In this document: in pieces, positions 8,138 to 26,795 of the stretch | How the letters are laid out: each line of letters starts with the position of its first letter | How positions within the stretch are numbered: position 1 is the first letter of the stretch | Assembly (NCBI GenBank): GCA_018262855.1 | Contig: JADFDO010000008.1 | Location: forward strand, 1 to 64,000 | Length of the DNA: 64,000 nucleotides | Source of the DNA: Methanolinea sp. | Lineage (GTDB): Archaea > Halobacteriota > Methanomicrobia > Methanomicrobiales > Methanospirillaceae | Reading direction: 5' to 3' | Notes under the pieces: generated by a model | Database searches by the model: none | Seen by the model: the letters and a program-made list of their open reading frames with translations, nothing else | What the model was told of the DNA's origin: nothing | Position numbers and translations under genes: made by a program

Positions 8138-8949
8138 ACAGGTGTACCATCAGGGGACTGACGATAGGTGATGGCGCCCCTGTCCGGGTGATGGGGGTGA
8201 TCAATTGCAGTCCCGAGTCATTCTACCCGGGATCCTACACGCCTGCACACGATGTTCTGGGCCGTGCCTGCCAGCTTGTAAACGAGGGTGCAGATATCAT
8301 CGATGTAGGTGCAAGGAGCACTGCTCCTGGTGCTCCGCACATCACGCGGAAAGAAGAGATCGCCAGGATGGAACAGGCACTTTCATCCCTGGAAGGTTCG
8401 GGTATCCGGGTCTCGGTGGACACGATGGATCCTGTCGTGCTCGAGACATGCCTCGAGTATGATATCGCTGCGGTGAACGATATTTCAGGCCTCCTTGACC
8501 CCGGATACGCATCGATCGTTGCCGAGTCGGGTCTCCCGGCCTTCCTGATGGCGTCCGTGAGAGCCGTGGGGGACTCACGCAATCTCGGAGAAGCCTTCCA
8601 GGCCTGTGCCATGGTTGAGACCAGGGCCCGTGCAGCGGGTGTTGCACAGTATGTCCTTGACCCGGCCATTGGTCTATGGCAGGAGACACGAACACCTGAT
8701 TTCGACCTGGAACTCTGCCGTCACTTCTCCGAGTTCACCATCTATCAGCGTCCCCTGCTTCTCGCGATATCACGAAAGACATTCCTCGGGAGGATGGTCG
8801 GGAAACCACCCGAAGGACGGCTGCCTGCATCGCTTGCCATGACAGCCCTCCTCGTCGCCAGGGGAGCTGATGTGGTGCGCACTCACGATGTCGCAGAGAC
8901 AAGGGATGCGATTATCATCGCCGAACAGGTAATGCTGGCAGGATCATGA
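8134..8949 (+). CDS. folP: Dihydropteroate synthase-like protein
   Basis: Dihydropteroate synthase joins a pterin diphosphate to p-aminobenzoate. The 271-residue TIM-barrel protein carries the first family signature [14 protein letters not shown] (about 22-35) and the second signature [19 protein letters not shown] in slightly altered form (about 48-67), then VSVDT and AVNDISG. It overlaps folD by ATGA at its start and the next gene by ATGA at its end. Because the neighbours are folate enzymes, tetrahydrofolate synthesis is the best reading; a role in methanopterin synthesis cannot be excluded, since methanogens also have related proteins for that pathway. Confidence 0.85.
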
Positions 8950-12777: not shown

Positions 12778-14433
12778 TCACCGGTTTTCTTCATCCTCCC
12801 CTGTCACAAGGACCCGGTAAATCGCATAAAATCCGATAGCAATCGCCACGATATAGGAAAAAAGAGCGAGGTAATAGACAAGATCAGGGAGCTGCAGGTC
12901 TGATTTCATCAGGATGAATGACGATCCGATGACCATGCTCGAGACGACCAGCCCGATCAGCACCTTGTTGCTGGTCCGGTCGAGCGATACCTGAAGGCGA
13001 CGGATGTCGGTGTCCACGATATCGATCTTGATGATCCCGGTCCCCAGCTGTTTCAGCATCTGGTTGATGTTCCTCGGCATATCGAGAAGGCCATCCATCG
13101 TCTCAAGCAGCGATCCCCCGGCACGCGATTTGATCTGCTCGATGAAAGAGTCCCGTTTTTTGAACCGGGCCATGTACTGTTCGGCCTCGTCCTTGAACCG
13201 GAATCCCGGGTCCAGTGCCAACCCCACATCCAGGACCATGATGATCACTTTCAGCATCAGCATCAGGTTCCCCGGGACATGGATACGGTATTCACGCAGA
13301 ATGGCGGTGAACGAACCTGCCATCTTGGCAAAGCTGAACTGCCCGATTGAGATCCCTTCAGCCTCCGTGAGGGCGATGTAGATCTCGTCCCGCAGCGCTT
13401 CCCTTGATGCCTCGGGGATCTTGACAGAGAGTCCCTCAAGTGATTTCATCATCATCCCCGCATCCTGGAGCACCATGGAATTGAGGAGCTGGGTGAACCA
13501 GAAACGTCGTTCAGGGCGGATTATGCCGATGATCCCGAAGTCCAGGAATGCGATCTCACCATCCTGGGTAACAAGGAGGTTTCCTGGATGCGGATCGCCG
13601 TGGAAGAAACCATCTTCGAAGATTTGTTTCATGTATGCAAAAAAGCCGGTCTCTGCGATCTTCCTGGGATTGAGCCCAAATGCACGAATGGCTTCGATAT
13701 TATCAATCCGCACCCCCTCGATAAATTCCATGACGAGCAGGCGCCTGCTGCTGTATTCCCAGTATATCTTCGGGACCTTTACCCCATCGATGTCACGCAT
13801 GTGGGCCCGAAGGAGGTCGGCATTCTTTCCATCGCGGATGAAATCGAGTTCTTTCCGGATCTGGGCCGCGAAATCCCTGATAATCCCCCTCGGGTTATAG
13901 ACTCTCCACTCGGGGAAGTTCCGTTCGGCACGCCTCGCGAGAGACTCGAGGATCAGGATGTCCGTCTCGATGATATCCTCGATTCCAGGCCTCTGGATCT
14001 TGACTGCCACCCAGGTGCCATCCTTCAGGCGAGCCCGGTGCACCTGGCTGATGGACGCAGAGGCTATGGGTATCTCCTCAATTTCTGAAAAATACTCCTC
14101 GTACTGCGGGCAGACCTCCTGGAGTACACCTCTGATCGTCTCGAACGGGAGCGGGTTCGTGTTGTCCTGGAGGTACCTGAGTTCTTCGATCAACCCGGGC
14201 GGGAGCATGTCCTGGCGGGTGCTGATGATCTGCCCGAACTTCACATACGTGGGCCCGAGCTCTTCGAGAGCCATCCTCATCCGCCGGTATTCATTCGCGG
14301 CGGAATCAACAGGGCAGGTTCGGCAAAGGCGGAACCTGATCACGCCGGGGAAGAGCCGCTGGACCGCAATCCCAAAACCGTACTTGAAGAGCACGTCAGC
14401 GATCTGCCAGTATCGACGGAATTTTGTTACCAT
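12778..14433 (-). CDS. ABC1/UbiB/AarF-family atypical kinase, membrane anchored
   Basis: The 551-residue protein is a protein-kinase-like ABC1 family member. It has the KxGQ motif (K65-F-G-Q68), the alanine-rich nucleotide loop ASASISQVHRARL (about 124-136) with the ATP lysine in VAVKIQRPG, the catalytic loop HGDPHPGNLL (about 278-287) and the metal-binding DFG in FLDFGIIG. Two hydrophobic helices at about 485-545 would anchor it in the membrane. In bacteria and mitochondria such proteins support ubiquinone synthesis; methanogens lack ubiquinone, so the substrate is unknown, though isoprenoid-lipid handling is plausible. It is transcribed alone and forms the left boundary of the accessory island. 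Confidence 0.88.
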   Translation of the reverse strand: MVTKFRRYWQIADVLFKYGFGIAVQRLFPGVIRFRLCRTCPVDSAANEYRRMRMALEELGPTYVKFGQIISTRQDMLPPGLIEELRYLQDNTNPLPFETIRGVLQEVCPQYEEYFSEIEEIPIASASISQVHRARLKDGTWVAVKIQRPGIEDIIETDILILESLARRAERNFPEWRVYNPRGIIRDFAAQIRKELDFIRDGKNADLLRAHMRDIDGVKVPKIYWEYSSRRLLVMEFIEGVRIDNIEAIRAFGLNPRKIAETGFFAYMKQIFEDGFFHGDPHPGNLLVTQDGEIAFLDFGIIGIIRPERRFWFTQLLNSMVLQDAGMMMKSLEGLSVKIPEASREALRDEIYIALTEAEGISIGQFSFAKMAGSFTAILREYRIHVPGNLMLMLKVIIMVLDVGLALDPGFRFKDEAEQYMARFKKRDSFIEQIKSRAGGSLLETMDGLLDMPRNINQMLKQLGTGIIKIDIVDTDIRRLQVSLDRTSNKVLIGLVVSSMVIGSSFILMKSDLQLPDLVYYLALFSYIVAIAIGFYAIYRVLVTGEDEENR

Positions 14434-14714
14434 GGTATCATGCGAGGATTACAAACGTGGGGTGGGAATGAGCTATTAGTGATTATTACATCCTTCATTA
14501 GTAATCTACACTATCCCTGTTTATGAGTTTTTCAATTGATTTCATCAGAAAAATCATTTTTATTTCTTTACATGGGAAATACCATTGATTTCCCACCCTT
14601 TCCAAAATCTCAGTAGACTGGTGAGTAATTATTATAAAAACCAATCCCCGCTGGCTTTATAGAAAACGAGTTGGTGTGGACAATTTCCGAATGGAAGGGG
14701 GAAGACCGGTATCA
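14434..14714. other. AT-rich spacer with short direct repeats
   Basis: This 281-base spacer separates the ABC1 gene from the island. It has an imperfect 9-base direct repeat (ATTAGTGAT near 14474 and ATTAGTAAT near 14499) and AT-rich tracts that could serve as the promoter of the ABC1 gene. I see no ORF, tRNA or attachment-site repeat with support. Confidence 0.4.
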
Positions 14715-15569
14715 TCATTTGCCATAGAACACGCCGTGTTTCATGTAACGCACGAGGGGATCCCTGATGTAATACTTCATCTGGGAGGTCATGTAATCAG
14801 CAGAGGTATCCCTTCCCGCGATCTTGAACCTGCGGATACCGATATCATATAATTTCCTGACTTCATCGATCGACAAAACCAGCTCATCGCACCTCATGTC
14901 TCCGGCTTTTTCTGCATAGCAGGTATTCAGATCTTCGAGATGTTTCCACAACACCCGCCTTTCCAGTACGTTTTTTGAGAAATAATCGAAATGCTCACGT
15001 TTGTAGGAACAGTTCTGAACACACGCTTCATTCACAAGCACTTCCAGCCGCGAAGTGTCCAAAGTCGAGAGGAGATCATACTTCCGGTTATCGTCAGGCT
15101 GAACAACGGCAGTGTCATAGAGGCTTAACAGCGACTGATAATCGGTTGACATATTCGCAATCGACGCCTTGGTTGAAAATTTTGGATACTGTGAACGGAC
15201 ATAGTCCCGGAGGATATCAGATGCGAGTATGACCCCGTTCATCGGGTTCTCGGTCTTCTCGAGAAAATAATTGCACATGTCGTCTTCGAGGTGCTCGGGC
15301 TCGAGGCAGGTATTCGAGAACGTATAAAACACTCCGATTCCCTTGTGGTTGTAAATTTTCACGAAACTGATGTAATCATCAAGGGTCAATTTTCCCCATG
15401 GGATATACCTGCCGCCCTGCCAGATCAGGCCGGGAGGGCAGTCATGCACCGAATCGACAACATGAGAATCAGATTTCAACAATCTGCGCATATATTCAAG
15501 GTAATTTGATATCTCGTTGAAGAAGATCAGTCCACCCGAGATAGTCCATTTCATGTCAGAGGTGACCAT
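14715..15569 (-). CDS. U32-peptidase-like/TIM-barrel-like protein, function unknown
   Basis: I do not assign a firm function. The 284-residue protein resembles U32-type (collagenase-like, UbiU/UbiV-related) TIM-barrel proteins in having a cysteine segment VNEACVQNCSYKREHF (about 182-197) and a downstream C-x(n)-C pair (residues about 219 and 227), an arrangement that binds a 4Fe-4S cluster in characterised members. A family-like IRRFKIAGRD segment follows near 245-254. The start at 15569 is preceded by GAAGGT. It sits at the edge of the peptide-modification island in the same direction as the radical SAM genes but over 1 kb away, so membership in that system is uncertain. Confidence 0.5.
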   Translation of the reverse strand: MVTSDMKWTISGGLIFFNEISNYLEYMRRLLKSDSHVVDSVHDCPPGLIWQGGRYIPWGKLTLDDYISFVKIYNHKGIGVFYTFSNTCLEPEHLEDDMCNYFLEKTENPMNGVILASDILRDYVRSQYPKFSTKASIANMSTDYQSLLSLYDTAVVQPDDNRKYDLLSTLDTSRLEVLVNEACVQNCSYKREHFDYFSKNVLERRVLWKHLEDLNTCYAEKAGDMRCDELVLSIDEVRKLYDIGIRRFKIAGRDTSADYMTSQMKYYIRDPLVRYMKHGVFYGK

Positions 15570-16010
15570 CGCATACCTTCACAACCACAATGTACGCGAT
15601 AGAGCCTCTATTAAATGATCGCTGACCAGACTGAATGTTACCATTTGGAACTACATTGAGTGGCTCAATCATGATATTAAATTATCATGAATCCGTTATC
15701 TCGCACCACCCCATTCAATTTTTTTCCGGTGCTGAAGAAGGTCATACATTATCCCCTGAGTCGATTCTTTCCTCCTTACCAGGAACAATAACAGTTGTCA
15801 ATTACGAGATCCTGGACAGAATTCCCCATGTGTGGCATCTCAAGATTCAGGGTATCTTCCAGAAAGAGTCGATGAAAAAATGAGAGAATAAGATTATATA
15901 TAAATTCCATCGAGTGTTAATAGTCGAGAAAATTTCACATGTTTACCATGTCCACATGGTATGATATGGGTGATTTCGCATAAATCCTGAAGAGAGATAG
16001 GGGAACAAGA
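15570..16010. other. Upstream region of precursor 1, no firm gene
   Basis: This 441-base AT-rich stretch carries a TATA-like GATTATATATAAATT at about 15890-15904 (plus strand), a perfect palindrome at 15945-15960, and a GATAGGGG ribosome-binding site just before the ATG at 16011. A plus-strand frame at 15635-15883 has no family match and no good start, so I leave it out. Confidence 0.45.
15945..15960. promoter_or_regulatory. Perfect palindrome upstream of precursor 1
   Basis: ACCATGT and ACATGGT flank a 2-base centre with no mismatch. It lies about 50 bases downstream of the best TATA-like sequence and 50 bases upstream of the precursor ATG. It could be an operator or a hairpin in the mRNA leader; no comparable palindrome is seen before the other three precursor genes. 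Confidence 0.35.
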
Positions 16011-16208
16011 ATGAATTCAATCAACGTGCAAAAGAGATGGAAGAGGCCACAACTGACTGTCCTGGTGAGAAATCAAGCGCAGGAACAAATCCTAAGTGCA
16101 TGTAAGGGAACTGGTGCAGGAGCCGGGCCCGATGGCGCGAGTTATATAACTTGCGTAGGAAGAACTTCCATGGCTTGCGGTGGTTGTTTCGATATCTCCA
16201 TTAGTTAA
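16011..16208 (+). CDS. Predicted RiPP precursor peptide 1 (four-Cys, C-terminal Ser)
   Basis: This 65-residue peptide shares its leader with three other short genes in the island: Trp10-Lys-Arg-Pro-x-Leu-Thr-Val-Leu-Val-Arg20, then a Gln/Glu stretch and I-L-S-A-C31-K. The C-terminal half is Gly/Ala/Ser-rich with Cys48, Cys56 and Cys59 and ends exactly six residues after the last Cys with Ser. The Cys pattern C-x16-C-x7-C-x2-C-x5-S(end) matches the other three. GATAGGGG precedes the ATG. It is the only copy on the plus strand, facing the modification operon tail to tail. I infer it is a substrate of the radical SAM/SPASM enzymes nearby; no named RiPP class is recognised. Confidence 0.8.
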   Translation: MNSINVQKRWKRPQLTVLVRNQAQEQILSACKGTGAGAGPDGASYITCVGRTSMACGGCFDISIS

Positions 16209-16674
16209 TTGGCCATACCACTCACAACTCTCATTTTTCATTCTATCAGAGATTATCAACGCAATTTTATTGTCGGTTAAGTCTAGAGATCCAGTCTGGA
16301 TATACCGATCCATTAGATATTCCTAACTCGTCTCGCAAGGAAAGATCCAATATCAGATATTCCAATTATTAGGTTGTCCTCTAAAGTGCCAGAAAAGATT
16401 TCTTATATTTTTATACCAGACCATGAAAGCACTGATATGTGATTGAAATTAGGTCATTATCTTATTTGACTCCATGTTCAGAATTGGTAAAATTCCAAAA
16501 GTCTCCGTTCAGGAGACATTTAATTCGTAGCAGTAATTCATCTGTCTCGTACAACTGTCCTCCGAATATCCTGCACCAGAATGGGATGTTGATTTACAAT
16601 ACGTCAGTATCTGTTCTGCATTCCTAGGTCGGATCAATACCATCAGGCTGGGCGGACTCCATTGTTTCTTCATT
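16209..16674. other. AT-rich intergenic stretch, nothing assigned
   Basis: These 466 bases lie between the convergent ends of precursor 1 and the minus-strand operon. Frames here are short, in AT-rich sequence, and lack ribosome-binding sites or family resemblance. No inverted repeats long enough to call a terminator stand out, although T-rich tracts are frequent. Confidence 0.4.
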
Positions 16675-16827
16675 TTACATCCATCTCAAAAGATCTCCCA
16701 ATTCACCACTCGCTTCTTCATGGACTCTCTTCAACGAAAGTATTTCTGTCTTTTTGCGATAGGTATCAACTAAGATTTTGACGAAGGAATAACATCCAAT
16801 TCCAGGGAGAATGGGTCTGTCGTTCAC
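16675..16827 (-). CDS. Small 50-residue ORF coupled to the radical SAM operon
   Basis: A GTG start overlaps the stop of the preceding radical SAM gene as GTGA, the same coupling seen between real genes in this window. The 50-residue product has no recognisable family: a hydrophobic/aromatic N-terminal third (SFVKILVDTY) followed by a charged, helical C-terminal half rich in Lys, Glu and Arg, ending in Trp-Met. It lacks the leader and Cys core of the precursor peptides. It may be a small accessory protein or a degraded gene end. The overlap is the main support. Confidence 0.35.
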   Translation of the reverse strand: MNDRPILPGIGCYSFVKILVDTYRKKTEILSLKRVHEEASGELGDLLRWM

Positions 16828-18014
16828 CCCGGAATATTCTTTGAGAACCTCCTGATGCGTTCCTCCCAGTCCTTGACCTCCCATGCTTTTTCCCCCTCAA
16901 GTATAAGCCCGAGATCACGAGCCTGCTCATGGGCCACTTCACAGAGGTATTCCACCGGGGTATCGAGTGTCCCATGCTCCATCCATGACTTAGCCGGGCA
17001 CGTCTCGCACAGTCCTTTCAGGAAACAACGGGCACACCGTGAGAGATAGTCAGGGTTTGTCGCTTTCATCTCTCGCACAGCAGGGAAGAACCGCGTTAAC
17101 GCGTCTTTCAGGGATCCCGACTTAAGGTTATACACGACAGATGGATGCCGGAGCATCAGACAGGGCTGCACCATGCCATAGGCATCGACGCACGCCCCGT
17201 GCCCGGCGCCGCAGGAGAAGAGGGAATCCCCGGGAGGCCTCATGAATTTTGAACAGAACTCCCGCATACTCTTCAGATAACTCTCGCGGTTGCGGGAGAG
17301 AATTGACACTCCGTCTCGTGGTTTTGCTCTCAAAGTATGAATGAGATGGTTCTTTTCGGGTGAGTCCCTGCGGCAGCGAAGATCAAAGAAGATCGAGTAT
17401 GACGGGGGCTTGTCCATAGCAGGGATTGTTGCCGCCCACTCCTCGAACTGTTCCATCTCATCGCGGTTCGGGGGAAGCACGGCTCCCTTCACGATGAAAG
17501 GGATCTTCCGTTCGAGCAAGAGGTCCATACCTCGCCTGAACTCGTCAAACGATCCGGGTGAACGGGAAACAGCCTCGTAGGACCCCCGTGTCATTCCGTA
17601 GACCGTGACTTCTATCTTCTCGAGCGGTGGCACCAGGGCGAGCATGTCTGCGATCTCCGGGGTGATACACCTCGCGTTGGTAAAAAGCATGACCTTAAGA
17701 CCGAGCTTTCTGGCATAGAGATACATTTCGGAGAAATCCTCCCGAAGGAGTGGTTCGCCTCCAGTGAACCTGACGGAAAGGGCACCGAGGGCGACCGCCT
17801 CGTTCAGGATCCGCTTGATCTCATCCTTCGACATTTCCCGGAGACGGGCCTTATCGTCTTCAGGCAGGTTGATGCAGCAATGGATACAGTTGTTGTTGCA
17901 CCGCTCGGTAAGCTCCATGTCCAGCCTTCCAATGAGGGGGGCACGGTCTTTCCATACCCTGTGGGATGACGCGGGTGCTGTGACCACATATGGTGAGGGA
18001 TTTTCTCTTGTCAT
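16824..18014 (-). CDS. Radical SAM/SPASM peptide-maturase-like protein A
   Basis: A 396-residue radical SAM enzyme with the cluster motif C39-x3-C43-x2-C46 (LTERCNNNCIHC), the SAM-binding FTGGEPLL near 83-90, and a C-terminal SPASM domain with cysteines at 254, 268, 275, 285, 327, 330, 336, 339 and 358, enough for two auxiliary 4Fe-4S clusters. Such enzymes typically install thioether, C-C or epimer changes in ribosomal peptides. It resembles the protein at 20024-21151 in motif order. It is last of the large genes in a minus-strand operon with pqqD, 15 bases after the fusion protein. The substrate is inferred to be the four-Cys precursors. Confidence 0.85.
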   Translation of the reverse strand: MTRENPSPYVVTAPASSHRVWKDRAPLIGRLDMELTERCNNNCIHCCINLPEDDKARLREMSKDEIKRILNEAVALGALSVRFTGGEPLLREDFSEMYLYARKLGLKVMLFTNARCITPEIADMLALVPPLEKIEVTVYGMTRGSYEAVSRSPGSFDEFRRGMDLLLERKIPFIVKGAVLPPNRDEMEQFEEWAATIPAMDKPPSYSIFFDLRCRRDSPEKNHLIHTLRAKPRDGVSILSRNRESYLKSMREFCSKFMRPPGDSLFSCGAGHGACVDAYGMVQPCLMLRHPSVVYNLKSGSLKDALTRFFPAVREMKATNPDYLSRCARCFLKGLCETCPAKSWMEHGTLDTPVEYLCEVAHEQARDLGLILEGEKAWEVKDWEERIRRFSKNIPG

Positions 18015-18029
18015 GATTGTCTGCCTGGT

Positions 18030-20027
18030 TCAGGAACCCTGCCGTACCAGGCGTGTGAGTTCCGGAACGATTGCCCCGCTCCTGTCAAAGTGCATCAGGA
18101 AGCAGGGTACTTCGGCAACGATCCGCTCCAGGATATCTATCTCTTTTTGCCACCATTCGGTGGTGACCATCGGCCTGATCAGGGTCGCAAGGAGCTTCCT
18201 GAAGATCTCGTTTCGGTCCGTAAGTGGTGTGATCTCATTCCTGGTATCCTGCTTGAGGAAGAGGATTGCCCGAAGCGGAGCAGACGCTCCAGACACATCC
18301 GGAACATCCCCATGGCTCCACGTACCATATACATACCACCCGCCATTCCTGTGCTGGATGATATTGCGGTCATCGCAGAGGATCTCGACCTCAAAATGTG
18401 ACCGGTTCCTGCTTGTCTCAGCCTCTTTCTTCAGGAGTGTCATGGTCGTCGATTTTCCTGCCTCGGAATGCCCGACAAACAGCAAACCCTGGCCGTTGAC
18501 GATTGCCGCTGCCGAATGCATAAGGACCGCATCGCGATCCGCGAGGAGGGGGGCAATCCATATCTGGTCGGTGGGAAAGAGGGAGAGGGAATGCCATCCC
18601 TCGTCCCGTATGCGGTCCGCATCCCTTGGAGGACTGTAAATGGATGCCCTGGTGTGATCGGCATTGAATACCGCGATGCGGTGCAACCCGGGATCATCCG
18701 GATCTGGCGAGATCCCGCGGTAAAACCACATGTCACCCTTCCGTGATATGGCCCAGGGTGCCTTCCTGTACAGTTCCCTGCCGAGGTCTTTTTCCTTCAG
18801 ATCAGGCAGATCAAAATAATGCCTGATAGTCACATTGTCTACCCCAGGGCCATCTGCTATGAAGGAGTTAAACTCCTCCTTGAATCCCATGTGATCAAGG
18901 TCAAGGTCGCTTTCAACACATACGGTTATACCAGCTATAGTAAAGTACCGGCGGTGTTTCCTTCTCCAGTTCTCTTTGAATTTTTTCGCCTCACTGGCAA
19001 CCTCGCAGAGGTAGGGGATCTTCGCAGAGTATCTCCCTGTCTCAAGGTATGCATAGACCGGACACCACCTGCAGTCTGAACGGTTCTTGCACGATCCGCA
19101 GTTCTTCCTGTATTCCTCTCCACCCCTGATTTTCCCGGAGAGTGATGGGATGAACTCTTCCCAGCATTCCACAAATGTGCCCGTGCGAAGGCTATACCTC
19201 ATCGCCGGGTCCTTGATGAACCCGCAAAATGTCATGTTCCCGTAGGGATCAAGGTGGAAATCCCGTCTTCCTTCGATACACCGAGCGAAAAGGGAATCAT
19301 CGGAACCACAACCACGGCAATGATCTTCCTGATCACGTTCTTCATGGGATGGCACCGGGTTATCCAGGTTTATGACTTCTTCAGGGGGGAGCCGCTGCGT
19401 ATTGATCTCGGCGTTCTTCTCCTTTGATCCGCTTGCGGAAAGGTAGAGCCAGGCGGCGCCGATCCTGTAGTGCGGGCTCAAAGACTTTGCAAGTTCAACC
19501 ATTTCCGGGAATTCATGGTAGTTGTCTCTCATGGGGATGATCTGGACCAGAAATCCCGCTCCAGCCTCTTTCAGCAGCTGAAATCCCCGCATGGTTGCCC
19601 TGAAGGAGCCAGGATTCCTGGTCACATGGTCGTGGACTGCCTCGGTCGCACCATAGAGCGCGATCATTTTCGACCCTTTCCGCGTGAGCAACTCTGCGAT
19701 TTCAGGGGTGATGAGTGTCCCGTTCGAGTTGAAGGAATAGGAGGTGGATTTACTGGTGATATAGTCGAATATTTCCGGGAAATCAGGGCGGAGCATCGGT
19801 TCGCCGCCTGAAATTGACCAGTGGCGGCACCCCATCGCCCGGGCATCATCGACAATATGGCAGATCTCATCAAATGAGAGTTCGTCATGCTTTTCCCTGC
19901 CATTTGGGGATACCCGCAGCCAGCAGTGACGGCAGTTGTTATTACACCGATAGGTAAGGTCGATCGAGCCTGAGAGGGGCAGACGGGGCATCTGACCGGT
20001 CTTTTTGATTGTCGCATACCCGGTCAT
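18030..20027 (-). CDS. Radical SAM/SPASM protein fused to an HPr-kinase-like domain
   Basis: This 665-residue fusion has an N-terminal radical SAM domain (C28-x3-C32-x2-C35; SGGEP near 73-77), a SPASM region with cysteines at 237, 240, 250, 268, 310, 313, 319, 322 and 341, and from about residue 360 an HPr-kinase/PEP-carboxykinase-like domain with HSAAAIVNGQGLLFVG and Walker A GHSEAGKST at 519-527, followed by LCDDRN and WYVYGTWSHG. Related stand-alone kinases (PadeK, ThcoK) phosphorylate the C-terminal serine of lasso peptide precursors. All four precursors here end in Ser, so peptide phosphorylation is a direct hypothesis. It overlaps the preceding maturase gene by ATGA. Confidence 0.85.
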   Translation of the reverse strand: MTGYATIKKTGQMPRLPLSGSIDLTYRCNNNCRHCWLRVSPNGREKHDELSFDEICHIVDDARAMGCRHWSISGGEPMLRPDFPEIFDYITSKSTSYSFNSNGTLITPEIAELLTRKGSKMIALYGATEAVHDHVTRNPGSFRATMRGFQLLKEAGAGFLVQIIPMRDNYHEFPEMVELAKSLSPHYRIGAAWLYLSASGSKEKNAEINTQRLPPEEVINLDNPVPSHEERDQEDHCRGCGSDDSLFARCIEGRRDFHLDPYGNMTFCGFIKDPAMRYSLRTGTFVECWEEFIPSLSGKIRGGEEYRKNCGSCKNRSDCRWCPVYAYLETGRYSAKIPYLCEVASEAKKFKENWRRKHRRYFTIAGITVCVESDLDLDHMGFKEEFNSFIADGPGVDNVTIRHYFDLPDLKEKDLGRELYRKAPWAISRKGDMWFYRGISPDPDDPGLHRIAVFNADHTRASIYSPPRDADRIRDEGWHSLSLFPTDQIWIAPLLADRDAVLMHSAAAIVNGQGLLFVGHSEAGKSTTMTLLKKEAETSRNRSHFEVEILCDDRNIIQHRNGGWYVYGTWSHGDVPDVSGASAPLRAILFLKQDTRNEITPLTDRNEIFRKLLATLIRPMVTTEWWQKEIDILERIVAEVPCFLMHFDRSGAIVPELTRLVRQGS

Positions 20028-21151
20028 GGCTGGTCTCCTGTGTATCCAAGCGCTTTTGCCCGTGCATGGGCAACCCGGCAGAAGTATTCAACCCGGCCAT
20101 CCAGCCTGCCTGTTTCGAGGTCGGCATGCGCAGGGCACCACAGGCAGAGGTTGATGATGGGGCAGACCCGGCATGTTTTTAAAAATTCTTGATTATTCGT
20201 CCGCATATCCCTCACTTTTGGAATAAAATGCTGCCAGGCATCCTCAAGCGTACCGGATTTGAGATCATACACACAGTCCGGATGGCAGAGGGACATGCAT
20301 AACCGAAACATTCCGTCGGGACCAACCACGAAATCCCCGTTCCCTGTCCCGCAATGGAAGAGATGGTTACACCCGGTTTTACAGAAATCGGGCACGATCA
20401 GGGTATCACACCCCTTTTCAAGGGCATTTTTTCGTTCGCCGTCAGATTGTTCGAGTCTCACGATCTCTTCAGGGGTGAGCCGCTCCCTTCGAATCTCCTC
20501 ATTCCTTGCAGGGTTGTGGTCCATTCTCAGGTGAAGCTGCGGATCGAACCGGTAATAATCCTTGGTGAACGCCCGGGAAAATTCTGCAATTTTCTGTATC
20601 TCATGGAGATTTGAATGAATTGCCATCGCCTTGAGCCTGACCTTGATACCTGCATCCAGCAGGAGGTTGAGTCCTCGCATGAATGCATCGTAGGAACCAG
20701 GACGACGGGAGACCGTTTCATACGTTTCTCTTGTAGCACCATACACTGTAATCTCAATATCACGGGGCGGGTACTTTTTGAACAGGTCGATATGGTCCCT
20801 GGTGATAAGGGTCGCATTGGTCATGACCGAAACAAGAAGTCCTTTTTTCTTAAGCCCGAGATATACCTCGGGAAAGTCTAGCCTGATGAGAGGTTCACCC
20901 CCGGTAATATTGCACCAGAGCGCCCCGAGCCTTACGGCCTGGTCTGCGATATCCATGATCTGCGGGACCGAGAGTTCCCTTTCCTTTGCCTCCTTATCAC
21001 CGGCAGGGAGGTTGATGTAGCAGTGAGCGCAGTTGTTGTTGCACCTTGCAGTCAGTTCGATCGTAAAGGAATAACAGGCCCGCTTCTCCTTCATCCTGTC
21101 CCAGAGCGAAAAGTCCTGTATCTCCTGTTGCGTGGTAAAATCTTCCGTCAT
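20024..21151 (-). CDS. Radical SAM/SPASM peptide-maturase-like protein B
   Basis: A 375-residue radical SAM enzyme: cluster motif C37-x3-C41-x2-C44 (LTARCNNNCAHC), NITGGEPLIR near 81-90, and a SPASM domain with cysteines at 257, 261, 267, 285, 327, 330, 336, 339 and 358 plus two more at 289 and 293. It is closely patterned on protein A at 16824-18014 (same CNNNC context, VYG-T-R-E/S-Y-E-VS-R segment and closing YxC-VAHxxA), suggesting duplication and substrate or reaction divergence. It begins 15 bases after the peptidase/GNAT gene and overlaps the fusion gene by ATGA. Expected activity is post-translational change of the four-Cys precursors. Confidence 0.86.
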   Translation of the reverse strand: MTEDFTTQQEIQDFSLWDRMKEKRACYSFTIELTARCNNNCAHCYINLPAGDKEAKERELSVPQIMDIADQAVRLGALWCNITGGEPLIRLDFPEVYLGLKKKGLLVSVMTNATLITRDHIDLFKKYPPRDIEITVYGATRETYETVSRRPGSYDAFMRGLNLLLDAGIKVRLKAMAIHSNLHEIQKIAEFSRAFTKDYYRFDPQLHLRMDHNPARNEEIRRERLTPEEIVRLEQSDGERKNALEKGCDTLIVPDFCKTGCNHLFHCGTGNGDFVVGPDGMFRLCMSLCHPDCVYDLKSGTLEDAWQHFIPKVRDMRTNNQEFLKTCRVCPIINLCLWCPAHADLETGRLDGRVEYFCRVAHARAKALGYTGDQP

Positions 21152-21166
21152 CCCAATACTCTTCCC

Positions 21167-22072
21167 CTATCTCGATCCTTCGCCAAGCACCCGTTTCATG
21201 GGAACCCGGCGGCTTCCAGTCTCCGAATATTCTCGGTCAAGTTGTTCTTCCAGGCCCGGGATCGAGACTGGCTCAAACTTGAGTTGCCTGTATAAGCTGA
21301 TAGCGGCTTTGTTTTTTTCATTGACAAGGAGTTTCAACTCGGGTGCACCCTCCTCATCTGCTTTTTCTATCACCTTCATCGAGAGTTCCCGCCCGATTCC
21401 CATGCCCCGGTACGGCACTCTCACCATAAGGCCGAAGAGCCAGTAGCCGGTGTACGGGTAATGTGATTCCGGATGCCTGACGAGCTGGATGAACCCAACG
21501 ATCTTCCCGCCCGCCTTCGCCACGAAGTTGGTCACCAAAGGGTCATGGCGGTAGGAGATATTTGCTGGATCGCAGTTCCAGGTGCTGTGGTACTCCTCCA
21601 TATCATGCTCTTCTGCTTCAAGAAAGGAAATACTGGGCCGAAGGTGTGCTGCCAGCCGGCGGTATGCCTCAAGTCCCTGGAGTTTCTGCAGCCCGGCACC
21701 GCAATACGTTCTCATCTGAACAGTTGTGGAGGTCGCCTTCTCCAGGAGGCCGAACCTGTTGAGGACTGCGATCATTCCCCGGCCATACAACAGCCCTGCT
21801 TTTACATCACTGCCGTTACGCTCAACACGGGTAACAATACCAAGGAGACTTGCCTTTGTGATGATCCCGTCCGGATCACCGCAATTATCCCCCTTTATCA
21901 GGCAGAACTCTCCGGTTCGTTTCACGACCCTGTGGACAACCAGCTTGCCAGTATCAGGGCGAACAAACGCCACAACATCTCCAGGAATGGGGCTTTCCGG
22001 TGGCATCGGCGAGATCGTGATGATATCCCGGTTCCTGATAAAAGGATGCATGCTGAAACCGGGTGCTCGCAT
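21167..22072 (-). CDS. S26-type signal-peptidase-like domain fused to GNAT acetyltransferase
   Basis: The N-terminal part has the S24/S26 peptidase pattern: Ser in PGFSMHPF, GDVVAF, then a His in VVHRVV and KGDN, the Ser/His layout of archaeal, ER and SipW-type signal peptidases. The C-terminal part is a GNAT N-acetyltransferase with acetyl-CoA motif RGMGIGREL and the typical LLVNEKNKAAISLYRQLKF segment. No clear membrane helix is seen. The start is uncertain: 22072 is the first in-frame ATG after pqqD stops, but family-like residues (EIRLELLKTVVEGG) lie upstream, so a GTG at 22099 or TTG at 22108 is possible. Leader removal followed by N-acetylation of the peptide is a plausible pairing. Confidence 0.75.
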   Translation of the reverse strand: MRAPGFSMHPFIRNRDIITISPMPPESPIPGDVVAFVRPDTGKLVVHRVVKRTGEFCLIKGDNCGDPDGIITKASLLGIVTRVERNGSDVKAGLLYGRGMIAVLNRFGLLEKATSTTVQMRTYCGAGLQKLQGLEAYRRLAAHLRPSISFLEAEEHDMEEYHSTWNCDPANISYRHDPLVTNFVAKAGGKIVGFIQLVRHPESHYPYTGYWLFGLMVRVPYRGMGIGRELSMKVIEKADEEGAPELKLLVNEKNKAAISLYRQLKFEPVSIPGLEEQLDREYSETGSRRVPMKRVLGEGSR

Positions 22073-22175
22073 GCGGAACTGATGCCCCCCTTCCACCACG
22101 GTTTTCAAAAGTTCGAGCCTGATCTCGCTCGTGTAGACCCCTTTATGTTCATCCTCGGCAAAGGTTCCGGTGCCT

Positions 22176-22478
22176 TCAGACTGCAATGACCATTCTCCGG
22201 TGGAAGAGCTCCCCGATAAGTCCCTGGATATCGAGTTCAATCTCGCCCGGAGGTGCGTCAAACTCCCTTGCCAGGGATTTTGCGATTTCCCGGAGGTTCG
22301 TCCTGCCATCGAGCCTGTCCCAGATAGCCCGGCCGGTCTCGTTCAGGGTATAAATCTCGTCTTCCGTGTTTCCGATTCCCGATGCAAGAGGTACGATGAT
22401 CAGCTCGCCCATCACGTCACGAGCAACAATGTCTTTGGATGGGCTGTAGACCCTGTCGAGGGATACTTCGTGCTCCAT
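22176..22478 (-). CDS. PqqD-like RiPP recognition protein
   Basis: This 100-residue protein has the PqqD/RRE pattern: a first strand region around VYSPSKDIVARDV, ELIIVPLASG, YTLNETGRAIWDRLDG (about 43-58), then helices with LREIAKSLAREFDAPPGEIELDIQGLIGEL broken by Pro-Pro. PqqD proteins bind the leader of a precursor peptide and present it to a radical SAM/SPASM enzyme. It opens the modification operon, preceded by TATA-like sequence CATTTTATAAC and an AGGTAACC site before the ATG. Its presence beside three SPASM enzymes and four leader-sharing short genes is the key argument for a RiPP system. Confidence 0.88.
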   Translation of the reverse strand: MEHEVSLDRVYSPSKDIVARDVMGELIIVPLASGIGNTEDEIYTLNETGRAIWDRLDGRTNLREIAKSLAREFDAPPGEIELDIQGLIGELFHRRMVIAV

Positions 22479-22778
22479 GGTTACCTACTTTTGTTATAAA
22501 ATGACTATATCTGTTAAGTAATATCATAGCTTGCGTTGTAGAGTACTTCCTTCGCTCAATAATATTAATTATTCACTTTACGAATTCCCCTGAATTACAC
22601 AATAAAGACAGGGCCTACCTTGCGTACAACCTCCCACTGCTCGAAAAAAATGATAGGATAGTAGGGTATTATTTAATCTACAGAGTGTATAAAGAAAATC
22701 TCCATAACCCAGTTAATACTAGTGATTCGGTCATGTGAGGAAAAAAAGAATTTTAATTCACAATAATTTGTGAACGGA
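22479..22778. other. AT-rich spacer between precursor 2 and pqqD
   Basis: These 300 bases hold the likely promoter of the pqqD-peptidase-radical SAM operon (TATA-like tracts on the minus strand near 22497-22515) and no supported gene. The break suggests the precursor genes can be transcribed apart from, and more strongly than, the enzymes. Confidence 0.45.
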
Positions 22779-22988
22779 CTATGACGCGGAAAGATTGGCA
22801 CATGCGACACAATATGCCGTCGCTGGTTCGTTACTGCAACTAATCGCTAAATTGCCTGGTCCTGTGATAACCCCTCTCATTTTACATGCTGTCAAAACAG
22901 TTTCTTCAGGATTATTCCTCACCAGGACAGTTAACACTGGCTTATTCCACAGACTCTTCATCTTCATCAGTTGGTCATTTCCTTTCAT
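22779..22988 (-). CDS. Predicted RiPP precursor peptide 2
   Basis: A 69-residue peptide with the shared leader Trp14-Asn-Lys-Pro-x-Leu-Thr-Val-Leu-Val-Arg24, Asn-Asn-Pro-Glu-Glu, then V-L-T-A-C35-K. The core has Cys51, Cys60 and Cys63 and ends at Ser69, giving C-x15-C-x8-C-x2-C-x5-S(end). Its leader is nearly identical to precursor 4 (23736-23945), and the two also share a 27-base identical block spanning the start codon and the ribosome-binding site. It lies 300 bases upstream of pqqD on the same strand. Predicted to be bound by PqqD and modified by the SPASM enzymes. Confidence 0.85.
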   Translation of the reverse strand: MKGNDQLMKMKSLWNKPVLTVLVRNNPEETVLTACKMRGVITGPGNLAISCSNEPATAYCVACANLSAS

Positions 22989-23042
22989 TTTGTAACCCCT
23001 ATCGATTACTACTGAAATCGTGTTAGTTATTAGTATATAAAC
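22982..23042 (-). promoter_or_regulatory. Promoter and 5' leader of precursor 2
   Basis: On the minus strand a TATA box (TTTATATACT, 23033-23042) is followed by a short leader carrying AGGGGTT six bases before the ATG. Bases 22982-23008 are identical to 23939-23965 ahead of precursor 4, and TATA-to-ATG distance is about 48 bases in both, so the two share one promoter/leader design. The rest of the spacer to 23335 shows no gene. Confidence 0.6.
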
Positions 23043-23335
23043 TGTTTGAAATATTGGAGAATCGAAAGAAAAGTAACCTGAAAATAGTATAGGCTCATCC
23101 TTTTACTAATCCTTGTAATACTTCATGGTAAGGGAATGAAGTGAAAATTACGTTGATATCATCTATGCGAAAAAGGAAAGATTGTTAGTCCCCCACTCAC
23201 GTGAAAGAAAACTCTTATAATCCTGGATACGGATATACAGCAACGTAGAACGTAACTATCATTTTTTTCGCTGAGTTAAAATTATGATAGGTTACACTCG
23301 AAAAAAGATGAAAATCTGGTGACCTATTAGCACTG

Positions 23336-23536
23336 TCATGAAGTCCCAATTATCTCGCAGATAAAGCATCCTTGATCTTCTGTCATGCAACCACCAGCAT
23401 TTGACCATGGAGAGGAAATCTGTCCCTGACTCTTACACGATGTCAATATCGCTTCCTCTCTGGTCCGAACCAGAATTGTGAGTACTGGCCTTTTCCAGGT
23501 AGTCTTACCTTTTTCACATATTACCGTCATATTCAT
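23336..23536 (-). CDS. Predicted RiPP precursor peptide 3
   Basis: A 66-residue peptide with the shared leader Trp14-Lys-Arg-Pro-Val-Leu-Thr-Ile-Leu-Val-Arg24, Glu-Glu, then I-L-T-S-C34-K. The core has Cys50, Cys57 and Cys60 and ends at Ser66: C-x15-C-x6-C-x2-C-x5-S(end). It is the most divergent copy, with an extra Cys7 in the leader and an aromatic core (Trp44, Phe58). TAGGGAG precedes the ATG, and a TATA-like TTCTTTAATAGC lies about 40 bases upstream, so it probably has its own promoter. Same strand as pqqD and the enzymes. Confidence 0.82.
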   Translation of the reverse strand: MNMTVICEKGKTTWKRPVLTILVRTREEAILTSCKSQGQISSPWSNAGGCMTEDQGCFICEIIGTS

Positions 23537-23735
23537 ACTCCCTATGGATACTAATGGAAGAAATAGATAATGCTATTAAAGAATTCAAGAAAAATTTAAC
23601 ATTAATTAGTGTTTTTGTTAATTTTTTACTTTAATTACCGGTATACCACACGCTATCATTGGCAGGCGAAGATTATCGCATACGGATTAATAATTGAATA
23701 CTACTTCAATCGCCTGATGAAAATAGTGTGGTGGA

Positions 23736-23945
23736 TTATGACGTGGTTAAATTATTGCATTTTCCTTCGCACACTGGTTCTGGTGGAACAGCACAAACAT
23801 CATAACCGGATCCGGGACCTACCGAACCTCGAACCAATTTGCACGCTGTTAAAACTTCTTCCTCTGGATTATTCCTTACCAGAACGGTTAACACTGGCTT
23901 ATTCCATGCACTCTTCACTTGTTCCGGATTGTTATAATCTTTCAT
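23736..23945 (-). CDS. Predicted RiPP precursor peptide 4
   Basis: A 69-residue peptide with the shared leader Trp14-Asn-Lys-Pro-Val-Leu-Thr-Val-Leu-Val-Arg24, Asn-Asn-Pro-Glu-Glu, then V-L-T-A-C35-K. Its core has Cys51, Cys59 and Cys63 and ends at Ser69: C-x15-C-x7-C-x3-C-x5-S(end). The frame is open 40 codons further upstream but those cross the TATA box; the start at 23945 is fixed by the AGGGG site and by identity with the start region of precursor 2. It is the first gene of the precursor run and likely a recent duplicate of precursor 2. Confidence 0.85.
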   Translation of the reverse strand: MKDYNNPEQVKSAWNKPVLTVLVRNNPEEEVLTACKLVRGSVGPGSGYDVCAVPPEPVCEGKCNNLTTS

Positions 23946-24000
23946 TTTGTAACCCCTATCGATTATTATGATAAAGAATTCGATTATTGATATATATACT
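23939..24000 (-). promoter_or_regulatory. Promoter and 5' leader of precursor 4
   Basis: A TATA box (AGTATATATATC, 23989-24000 on the minus strand) sits about 49 bases before the ATG. The 27 bases 23939-23965, which cover the start codon and AGGGG site, are identical to the block before precursor 2. The sequence between block and TATA differs, so the conserved leader itself rather than the whole promoter seems to be under constraint, or the duplication ended there. Confidence 0.6.
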
Positions 24001-24139
24001 ATTGGAAAATTTTTCGCAGTCGACAAGAATCTGAAACACTTGAGGATAACAGCCGGTGAATACAAATAATTCGATGATCCGATACACCTGAAAATAATGA
24101 AAGAGGATTAATAGATAATGTCGGTTGTCCTGCCAATAA

Positions 24140-25831
24140 TTACCGGTGGGTAAAATACGCGATGATACCTTCCGGCGAAATCGAATCGATCCTCACAAAC
24201 CCTACCCGTTCGAACTGCACCACGTTTCCGAGTTCACTCTTTACCGCCTGCTCACACATACCATGCACATCACCATCAGGCGTCATGAGTGTACAGGGGA
24301 TGCAATTTCTTGGGGACAGCCACTGGATAATTGGAGCTTTTTTCATACGGACGTCCGCAAGGGATTCTCCTGCAAACGTCGCAGTTTGAATCGTGGAATC
24401 CCCATTATGGATCTCAATATTGAAGAGATCTTTCAGGCGCTTTAGGCCAGGTGTTGCCTCGTTGCTGGGAATCAGTGTCGCAGGAGCGGTATAGTCCAAT
24501 GTCCTGCTCCCACTCTTCTCATCGCCAGGATGGAGAGCAGGATGTGCTGTCCAATTCTCCGGTCCCCCTTTGATGCGGATTTCGACAGGATCTGGAACAA
24601 AAAAGTATCGATTTGCGATTTTATCGACAATATTCCGGTTCTTAGCAAACAGGTTCTCCCATGAGAAGGAGATGTCAGTCTCGCCGATACCAATGTCGAG
24701 GACCGCTTCCCGGACCGCCTCCGGTTTGATCCCTCGGCGTGCCATGGCCCGGAGCGTACCGAGGCGGATATCATCCCATCCCTGGAACTCGCCTGCATTG
24801 ATCCCTGCCCGCATCTGCGAGGTCGAGAGGACGACCCCCTCGATTCCCATCCGGCCATAGTGCCGGTATACAGGGGGTTCCCATCCGAAATAATCGAAGA
24901 TATACCGCTGCCTTCGGGTATTCGCAATATGATCCTTCCCGCGGATTACGTGGGTTATCCCGAGGAGGTGGTCATCAACGGTGACCGAGAAGTTCATCAA
25001 GGGGTAGAGACACCCCTCCATCCTCGGGTGAGGCGGGCTCTTGAGGATGCGGAACGCCGGAAAGTCCCTCATCGCGGGATCGGGATGATCGAGATCGGTC
25101 CGGACACGGAGGGTCGCCTCTCCTTCTTCGAACCCGCCATCACGCATCTTTTTGAAGGATTCGAGGGTTTCGTCAATACCGGTGCTGCGGCAGGGACAGG
25201 CCTCCTTCGCGAGCTTCATTGCCTTGAAACGCTCGTTGTCACAGGTGCAGACGTAGGCACCTCCCCGTTGGATCAGCTCCTCGCCGTACTGGTAGTAAAG
25301 ATCAAAACGATCGCTCTGGTAGACGATGTCGGTAATCCCGAGACCCAGCCATTTCAGGTCCTCCTGGACCATCGTGTACGCCTGAGGATCAACTCTCTTC
25401 GGGTCCGTATCCTCGATGCGAAGGACATAGCGCCCACCGTAACGGTGAACATACGCATCGTTCAGGACCGCAGCCCTTGCATGACCGAGATGGAGAGGGC
25501 CGGACGGGTTCGGGGCAAACCGCATGACGACACCCCCCTGTGCCTTTTCGAGATCGGGGAGCTCCCTGACCTGCTCACGGGGCTTTGCCATTTCCTCGAC
25601 AAGTTCCGGGGCTATCGCCTGGAGGCGGGCAGCCTGCTCTGCGGGAGGGATGGCAGAAACCTCGTCGATCACTTCCTTCACAAGTACGGTTGCCTCCCGG
25701 GCTCTTGCCTTGAATTCCGGGTACTTCCCCATCACCATCCCGATCACGGCACCGGGTTTGGGTATGCTCTGGTGTTTAACCGCGTTCTGGAGTGCAAAAA
25801 GAAGGAGTGCCTGCCTCAGTGGATCCTCCAT
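24140..25831 (-). CDS. gltX: Glutamyl-tRNA synthetase (archaeal type)
   Basis: GltX charges tRNA-Glu (and in many archaea tRNA-Gln) with glutamate. The 563-residue protein has a helical N-terminal extension, the class I HIGH motif as HLGH (114-117, in PSGPLHLGHARAA), IEDTDPKR, a DHLLGITHVIRGKDH segment, and a KMSKS-equivalent VLSTSQM, before a beta-barrel anticodon-binding C-terminus typical of archaeal/eukaryotic enzymes. I start at the ATG at 25831, one base after the idsA stop and after GGAGC; an upstream ATG at 25861 would overlap idsA. It is the distal gene of a long minus-strand operon and the right boundary of the accessory island. Confidence 0.95.
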   Translation of the reverse strand: MEDPLRQALLLFALQNAVKHQSIPKPGAVIGMVMGKYPEFKARAREATVLVKEVIDEVSAIPPAEQAARLQAIAPELVEEMAKPREQVRELPDLEKAQGGVVMRFAPNPSGPLHLGHARAAVLNDAYVHRYGGRYVLRIEDTDPKRVDPQAYTMVQEDLKWLGLGITDIVYQSDRFDLYYQYGEELIQRGGAYVCTCDNERFKAMKLAKEACPCRSTGIDETLESFKKMRDGGFEEGEATLRVRTDLDHPDPAMRDFPAFRILKSPPHPRMEGCLYPLMNFSVTVDDHLLGITHVIRGKDHIANTRRQRYIFDYFGWEPPVYRHYGRMGIEGVVLSTSQMRAGINAGEFQGWDDIRLGTLRAMARRGIKPEAVREAVLDIGIGETDISFSWENLFAKNRNIVDKIANRYFFVPDPVEIRIKGGPENWTAHPALHPGDEKSGSRTLDYTAPATLIPSNEATPGLKRLKDLFNIEIHNGDSTIQTATFAGESLADVRMKKAPIIQWLSPRNCIPCTLMTPDGDVHGMCEQAVKSELGNVVQFERVGFVRIDSISPEGIIAYFTHR

Positions 25832-25832
25832 G

Positions 25833-26795
25833 TCAGTAGCTCCGGCGTATGAAGTAATCACCCATCTGAATGAGGAGATCGCGTTCCTGGCTCTTGGGGA
25901 GAATGGAGATCCGCTTTATCCCTGTCTTCACCAGGTTCTCCGCGGTCTCCTGCACCTCTGCAATTACCCCGAGTTGATTGAGTTTGGCGATGATGTCCTG
26001 GATCTCGGCAGGACTGAGACGCCGCTTGAAGGGTGACAGGTCAAATCCTTTCTCAAGCGCCTTGATATGGATGAGTGTCTTCTTTCCTTCCCGGATATCG
26101 GATGCCTGGTCCTTCCCGCTCACTTCAGGCGGGGCGAGGAGATCGATCAGGTCGTCCTGGATCTGGAACGCCATCCCTATACCCTGGCCAAAATGGTAGA
26201 GGGCGCTTGAGTATGAGGGGTTTCCCCCCGCAAGGATACTGCCGATCCCTGCGGATGCTGCATACAGCGCTCCGGTCTTCTTTTCGACCATCTTCAGGTA
26301 TTCACCCTCGCTCACATCGTCACGGTTCTCAAAGGCCATGTCAAGGTGCTGCCCTTCGCAGATCTCAACGCACGTTCGCGCAAGCATGGACGTGGCACGC
26401 ACTTTTGTATTATCGGGGGCTTCAGCCATGCTGATGAACTCAAAGGCGCTGGCAAAGAGCACGTCGCCTGCCAGGATTGCGGTCGGCTCGTTCCATTGGG
26501 TGTGGACTGTGGGAACGCCCCTTCTCACCTCGTCGCCATCCATGATGTCGTCATGGATGAGGGTGAAACTGTGGGTGAGCTCGAGTGCCAGCGCCGCGGG
26601 CATCACGTCCGTCGAACTCCCCTTCTTCACGGCATCCGCTGCAAGCAGCAGCACCGCAGGGCGCAGCCGCTTTCCTCCTGCAAGCAGAAGGTGTGCGCTC
26701 GCTTTGCCGAGGTCATCGCATGCCGTTCCAAAATACCGGTCAATGAGCGCGTCTACCTGGCTGGCAGTCTGTTCCAGATATTCCTTGAGATCCAT
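25833..26795 (-). CDS. idsA: Short-chain polyprenyl diphosphate synthase (likely GGPP synthase)
   Basis: This 320-residue enzyme condenses isopentenyl diphosphate with allylic diphosphates, feeding archaeal ether lipids. It has GGKRLRP (40-46), the first aspartate-rich motif DDIMD (82-86) and the second DDLID (214-218). Phe77 lies five residues before the first motif, a position that sets chain length; a Phe there matches the archaeal geranylgeranyl type, but farnesyl products cannot be excluded. It lies 25 bases after RNase J and downstream of idi, ipk and mvk, so the operon runs from mevalonate to prenyl diphosphate. Confidence 0.94.
   Translation of the reverse strand: MDLKEYLEQTASQVDALIDRYFGTACDDLGKASAHLLLAGGKRLRPAVLLLAADAVKKGSSTDVMPAALALELTHSFTLIHDDIMDGDEVRRGVPTVHTQWNEPTAILAGDVLFASAFEFISMAEAPDNTKVRATSMLARTCVEICEGQHLDMAFENRDDVSEGEYLKMVEKKTGALYAASAGIGSILAGGNPSYSSALYHFGQGIGMAFQIQDDLIDLLAPPEVSGKDQASDIREGKKTLIHIKALEKGFDLSPFKRRLSPAEIQDIIAKLNQLGVIAEVQETAENLVKTGIKRISILPKSQERDLLIQMGDYFIRRSY

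Follow-up and report, generated by a model that had tools for sequence, protein, structure and literature searches.

Between the genes for an ABC1/UbiB-type kinase and gltX, the genome of Methanolinea sp. carries an island of enzyme genes and short open reading frames (ORFs), which raises the question of what these enzymes do to which peptides. The island lies in the window, by which we mean the whole stretch of 64,000 nucleotides analyzed here (contig JADFDO010000008.1, positions 1 to 64,000). The initial annotation had read it as a multi-enzyme system of the kind that matures ribosomally synthesized and post-translationally modified peptides (RiPPs), with a PqqD-like protein, a peptidase/acetyltransferase fusion, and three radical SAM/SPASM proteins, all of which were recovered from the ORF list and the Pfam and NCBIfam scans. 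From the comparisons given below, we consider it probable that the island is a RiPP pathway phosphorylating the C-terminal Ser of its peptides alongside SPASM chemistry, probably on Cys. The features of the island that bear on this reading are the following:

14434..24139: inserted island of about 9.7 kb, between the ABC1 kinase gene and gltX
23736..23945, minus strand: precursor peptide 1, leader WNKPVLTVLVR, end CNNLTTS
23336..23536, minus strand: precursor peptide 2, leader WKRPVLTILVR, end CEIIGTS
22779..22988, minus strand: precursor peptide 3, leader WNKPVLTVLVR, end CANLSAS
16509..16673, minus strand: precursor peptide 4, leader WSPPSLMVLIR, end CYELNVS
16011..16208, plus strand: precursor peptide 5, leader WKRPQLTVLVR, end CFDISIS
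22176..22478, minus strand: PqqD-type RiPP recognition element (RRE; PF05402, 57.6 bits, cut-off 23.4)
21167..22309, minus strand: archaeal-type signal-peptidase-like (S24/S26) domain (SpI) fused to GNAT (TIGR02228 and rimI-like matches)
20024..21151, minus strand: radical SAM/SPASM protein rSAM1 (PF04055, 87.9 bits; full Cys motifs; orthologues)
18030..20027, minus strand: radical SAM/SPASM protein rSAM2 fused to a C-terminal kinase of predicted HprK/PEPCK fold (PF04055, 86.3 bits; 665 aa)
16824..18014, minus strand: radical SAM/SPASM protein rSAM3 (PF04055, 73.2 bits; full Cys motifs; orthologues)

Five short genes share the leader, not four as proposed at first. The first of them had been placed at 24065, which is an over-long TTG start; the true start is at 23945, and the first and third genes share this ATG and some 22 bp in front of it. 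The five peptides align along their entire length with the common leader WxxPxL...E..[IV]L..CK, and their profile, run on their own genome, has these five peptides as its sole matches. The genes for peptides 1 and 3 keep 77-87% identity over most 30-bp windows of the start region and leader, and identity drops to 30-37% in the core; a conserved leader with a diverged core is the usual RiPP pattern. In a 16-row alignment with precursors from other genomes, the leader reads WxxPx[LIV]xx[LI]xR...CK. All 16 rows have W-x-x-P, R, E, L, CK, a late Cys, and the terminal Ser in common; no other Ser is invariant, and each core contains three to four conserved Cys. The end C-x5-S was found in 20 of 20 precursors of the first five genomes (the 16 aligned and four more from G326). 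The intact precursors number 28 when G488, G500, G517, G534, and G515 are added to these five genomes, and 26 of them have the terminal Ser; a precursor-like ORF of G503 has a premature stop, and one of G020 (at L025) is degenerate. No family was assigned to the precursors by the Pfam and NCBIfam scans, and one sub-threshold methanobactin match was judged to be chance. A 166-aa ORF of another kind that contains WNKPVLTVLVR (L008) was rejected as a false positive of the five-peptide scan across the genome contigs, and tblastn of peptide 1 against plasmids gave no convincing match. A leader-like stretch also occurs at 15770-15830 on the minus strand of the window (frame LTTVIVPGKEERI); it is perhaps the remnant of a sixth precursor, although the signal is weak (a 21-nt repeat at 76%).

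The comparison set for conservation comprised 232 genomes of the order. The precursor profile, whose E-values reach down to 1e-32, found relatives in 11 of them. The island-type kinase was present in 10 genomes, of which 8 belong to the 11 with precursors and 2 to the 221 without (8 both, 3 precursor only, 2 kinase only; Fisher p=4e-11). Both kinase-only genomes are 74%-complete assemblies in which the kinase contigs are under 5 kb. The cassette recurs in another family (G326) and in two other genera. Its order PqqD-SpI-rSAM1-rSAM2::kinase-rSAM3 is kept in G326, G020, and G036, and the contig of G027 has the same order as far as the contig edge inside rSAM2::kinase. In G326, genes for an MsbA-like ABC transporter and for NTP_transf_5 are part of the cassette too, which has a pair of precursors at either end, and some precursor copies in G020 and G027 lie away from the cassette. 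The short genes are kept as proteins in these relatives and co-occur with the PqqD/SPASM/kinase cassette, and both outcomes favor the RiPP-like system first proposed.

In the window, pqqD through rSAM3 form a tight operon with overlaps or gaps of about 15 bp; three precursors are upstream and two downstream, one of the latter on the opposite strand. The PqqD protein matches the lasso PqqD families of NCBIfam at 1e-5 and ScmD at 5e-6, in every case below cut-off. The true start of the peptidase/GNAT gene is uncertain because its ORF overlaps pqqD. The peptidase retains its catalytic residues (Ser in FSMxPF, His in VHRV, and Asp in GDN), and no transmembrane stretch was found in the fusion. Each of rSAM1, rSAM2, and rSAM3 has CX3CX2C and the seven-Cys SPASM pattern, and in the tree they form three orthologue groups. 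Sactipeptides and ranthipeptides are defined by a Cys thioether crosslink made by a SPASM enzyme; of this, the sequences show conserved Cys and SPASM enzymes only. When rSAM gene counts were compared with Cys counts, no relation was seen.

The kinase domain occupies about residues 355-665 of the rSAM2 fusion. By sequence, this extension matches ScmC, HprK_rel_B, and, weakly, HPr kinase. An AF2 model of the 310-aa domain (14 rows) reached a pLDDT of 82, and Foldseek with this model returned PEPCK and HprK/P structures at probability 1.00. For the full-length fusion (665 aa), the AlphaFold model was of low confidence (pLDDT 50), yet its kinase part matched HprK. His149 and Lys170 are invariant, and the Asp-Asp pair (197-198) is largely conserved. 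As modeled, the domain has the HprK/PEPCK fold with a P-loop and the His, Lys, and Asp-Asp residues that define an HprK-type kinase. The same His-Lys-Asp-Asp set is the motif of lasso kinases that phosphorylate a conserved C-terminal Ser (PMC9266682).

The state of the kinase can be compared with the end of the precursors. Seven genomes have an intact P-loop, and all 22 of their precursors terminate in C-x5-S. The P-loop is broken only in G515 (loci L116 and L108), where GLLKADKNLI replaces GHSEAGKSTT, with loss of the Gly and Ser/Thr but not of the Lys; the rSAM2::kinase frame reads through with its radical SAM part intact. The three precursors of G515 end in C-x5-D, C-x5-S, and C-x5-A, and the two non-Ser ends, which keep the Cys-x5 spacing, are the only two among the 28 precursors. 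The association of the Ser end with the P-loop state gave a Fisher p=0.01, which overstates the correlation because only one genome is behind it. As a natural comparison, the Ser loss with P-loop decay in G515 is suggestive only. The variant in G534 is compact and intact; its kinase stands alone, rSAM2 is missing, and the precursor still ends in C-x5-S. The kinase is therefore the more constant element. The first reading had recognized the RiPP-like parts and missed both the core set shared with the linear polyphosphorylated peptides (LPPs) of Bacillota and SynChlorMet and the terminal Ser as the likely kinase target.

With the genes, their conserved order and co-occurrence, the catalytic motifs, the kinase fold, the insertion, and the Ser/P-loop correlation as the directly observed or computed points, a pathway may be proposed. 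By analogy with lasso and LPP RREs, the PqqD-like RRE would bind the shared WxxPxL leader and present the precursors to the enzymes. The SPASM enzymes would introduce radical modifications such as crosslinks into the core; thioethers at the conserved Cys are the likeliest of these and the simplest guess, because each core has three to four such Cys. The HprK-like kinase domain on rSAM2 is predicted to phosphorylate the C-terminal Ser, once or repeatedly, as the comparative data suggest. Leader removal would fall to the cytoplasmic signal-peptidase-like domain. In genomes that keep the fused GNAT, the resulting N-terminus may be acetylated by it. An MsbA-like ABC transporter would export the product, and the NTP_transf_5 enzyme may decorate the phospho-Ser. 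Our guess is that the product could be a secreted peptide for competition or for the cell surface.

Among known systems, the LPPs of Bacillota are close in gene content. Leader binding by a discrete RRE, RRE-assisted signal-peptidase-like cleavage, HprK-like phosphorylation, and MsbA-type export are supported by experiment or proposed for them (Popov et al. 2026, PMC13381572), and precursor phosphorylation and cleavage by the Bacillota domain set were shown experimentally (PMC13381572). The island system shares with LPPs a discrete RRE, an archaeal-type signal-peptidase-like peptidase (Ser-His-Asp), an HprK-like kinase, an NTP transferase, an MsbA-like exporter, and a [Y/W]xxP leader before a variable core. 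G326 has the whole LPP core gene set in a single cassette; the window genome carries NTP_transf_5 and the ABC transporter on contig C3. However, radical SAM enzymes are not reported for LPPs, whereas the island has three SPASM proteins. The LPP leader reads YxxPxVLxHQxIxFET and Ser3 of the LPP core is phosphorylated, whereas the island leader reads WxxPx[LIV]xx[LI]xR...CK and the start of the island cores has no conserved Ser. In addition, the island kinase is fused to a SPASM enzyme, the peptidase is fused to GNAT, and the host is an archaeon. For paeninodin-type lasso peptides, phosphorylation of the C-terminal Ser is likewise supported by experiment or proposed. The likeness of the island system to them comprises the WxxP leader for the RRE, the conserved C-terminal Ser, the HprK-like kinase with His-Lys-Asp-Asp, and an NTP transferase; leader, Ser, and kinase motif were all found as defined for that class (PMC9266682, PMC13381572). 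However, inspection of ORFs and family matches showed no lasso cyclase and no B2 cysteine protease in the island or in the cassettes of G326, G020, and G036.

The initial annotation recognized no named RiPP class, and no NCBIfam class matched. Since the SynChlorMet (SCM) cut-offs were not reached, the LPP differences are as described, and lasso cyclase and B2 are missing, we regard the island as a distinct form of the RRE/SpI/HprK kind. HprK-type peptide phosphorylation is described for lasso peptides and Bacillota LPPs, and LPPs and paeninodins were described as confined to Bacillota (PMC13381572). This core now appears in archaea with three SPASM enzymes added, the kinase being physically fused to one of them, which suggests that a bacterial peptide-phosphorylation pathway also exists, in elaborated form, in archaea. 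The system supplies actual precursor sequences and a predicted site of modification, and G515 offers a natural loss-of-function comparison. Literature searches, which did not cover subscription journals and are therefore a weak negative, found no description of an archaeal SPASM/kinase RiPP and no paper on SynChlorMet.

The island might be merely a divergent member of the SCM cassettes, a family known in silico, with an extra SPASM gene, which we regard as quite unlikely. Its PqqD, rSAMs, and kinase do match ScmD, ScmE, ScmF, and ScmC (NCBIfam TIGR04248-04251), the ScmC kinase being of the same superfamily. Same-phylum SCM cassettes have SpI and NTP_transf_5 or ABC genes with YxxPx[LI] peptides, and the SCM cassette of G393, a sibling of G326, adjoins a transporter 81% identical to that of G326. 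However, the island proteins score far under the equivalog cut-offs (ScmC 27-36 bits against 125, ScmD 27 against 100, ScmE 65-72 against 400, and ScmF 68-84 against 400), whereas the true SCM proteins of the positive control L066 reached 525, 162, 721, and 714 bits, respectively. SynChlorMet has two SPASM enzymes and a free kinase, sometimes fused to SpI, whereas the island has three, with the kinase on rSAM2, and these three form a clade separate from ScmE and ScmF (support 100/96). The precursors differ as well, with a leader Y and Cys/Gly-rich cores of varied ends in SCM against the leader W and the C-x5-S end of the island. The peptides could also be matured into a redox cofactor or an enzyme subunit instead of being secreted, following the logic of PQQ and mycofactocin, which like GeoRSP combine a PqqD-type chaperone with SPASM radical SAM enzymes. 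The mycofactocin maturase matches of 76-109 bits point this way but stay under the cut-off of 265. Island scores are under cut-off for GeoRSP and PQQ too, and these systems have other precursors and no kinase or SpI. The presence of several precursor paralogues in a genome, their cores diverged, a patchy distribution (precursor or kinase in 13 of 232 genomes), horizontal transfer, the lack of a dehydrogenase partner in the cassette, and the association with an exporter and NTP_transf_5 all fit a cofactor poorly and make it very improbable. That the short ORFs are chance frames or parts of a mobile element unrelated to the enzymes is next to impossible; they are low in GC and intergenic, and some copies are off the cassette in G020 and G027, but the profile E-values, the conservation across families, and the co-occurrence with the enzymes contradict it.

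Several observations weigh against the RiPP pathway with terminal Ser phosphorylation as proposed. LPP kinases phosphorylate Ser3 of the core and not the last residue (PMC13381572), and the island kinase is no more than a distant relative of lasso kinases, so it could act on a core Ser/Thr near the leader or on another substrate, with the terminal Ser as a recognition or structural element. We hold this to be unlikely, given that no other Ser is invariant in the alignment, that the Ser is lost and the spacing kept where the P-loop is broken, and that the C-terminal Ser on which lasso kinases act is just as conserved (PMC9266682). The Ser/kinase correlation itself comes from one genome, three peptides, and a partly decayed locus. 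G488 and G500 have precursors without a kinase match, in assemblies that are 84-85% complete. The Cys targets of the SPASM reaction are taken from conservation alone. GNAT is absent in G020 and G027 and a pseudogene in G036, so it is not essential and was set aside as a core enzyme. In the window genome, neither the exporter nor NTP_transf_5 is linked to the island, and NTP_transf_5 was not found in G027.

NTP_transf_5 is enriched among genomes with precursors, being present in 6 of these 11 and in 17 of the 221 others (p=2e-4). In its own genus, the window genome is the only one to have it. There, contig C3 (L031:6020-12772) carries NTP_transf_5, the MsbA-like ABC transporter, a second PqqD, and an STT3-like gene; no precursor was found at this locus. 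In G036 (L029), a precursor lies beside NTP_transf_5, an ABC transporter, and an STT3-like gene.

The position of the block between the ABC1 kinase gene and gltX was confirmed, and its size was corrected from 9.4 kb to an insertion of 9.7 kb. The remaining features of the region are:

12778-14433, minus strand: ABC1/UbiB-type kinase gene, flank (ORF list and family scans)
24140-25861, minus strand: gltX, flank (ORF list and family scans)
14715..15569, minus strand: U32-like protein (PF01136, 22.0 bits, marginally below the cut-off of 22.4)

In 10 same-genus genomes, the island is missing and gltX and the ABC1 gene are only 33-65 bp apart, which indicates that the roughly 9.7 kb were inserted in the window genome. 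The precursor regions are AT-rich, with 38% GC against 54-56% (gltX, 56%). The window rSAM1-3 pair in the tree with G326, which belongs to a different family, and not with the same-family G020, G027, and G036, which indicates horizontal transfer. The U32-like protein has several Cys in its C-terminal half; its gene has no counterpart in any related cassette compared, was therefore set aside as a pathway member, and is probably a passenger of the island. The label "methanogen" was not confirmed, as a search of the whole assembly (G000, 99% complete) gave no match to the MCR alpha C-terminal domain (PF02249), although F420 genes are present and the window holds F420 genes and the archaeal RNA polymerase subunit D. 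A gap, a masked stretch, or biology are possible causes.

Short Cys/Gly-rich ORFs with a YxxPx[LIVM] leader adjoin SCM cassettes and are candidate SCM precursors:

L066:9497-9679
L067:8933-9211
L068:9157-9360
L069:8051-8242
L070:7633-7827, 8040-8225, and 14173-14352
L071:7573-7908
L072:8923-9213
L073:5536-5724
L074:8752-8961

To our knowledge, the substrate was unidentified when the SynChlorMet cassette was named; candidates with the YxxPx[LI] leader therefore make this old prediction testable. It is possible, and we put it forward tentatively, that SynChlorMet is a sister system and that rSAM-containing phospho-RiPPs are a large, previously unseen group. At L069:10982-12883, an SCM cassette stands beside an ABC transporter 81% identical to that of the G326 cassette. 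From their sequences, G393 and G326 look as if modification cassettes had been exchanged around a shared exporter. A third arrangement combines an ScmC-like kinase, a PqqD, a single radical SAM protein, and a short peptide of the type REEYxKPxIxSExIExGAYG (L076:8218-10690, L077:6268-8707, L081, and L082). The only plasmid match to the kinase domain was in pNP243 of Butyrivibrio fibrisolvens (L119:8938-10961), whose LPP-like cluster comprises two ABC ATPases, an HprK-like kinase annotated as hypothetical, a PqqD, an S24/S26 peptidase, a Cys-rich peptide with YVKPEL, and nucleotidyltransferases.

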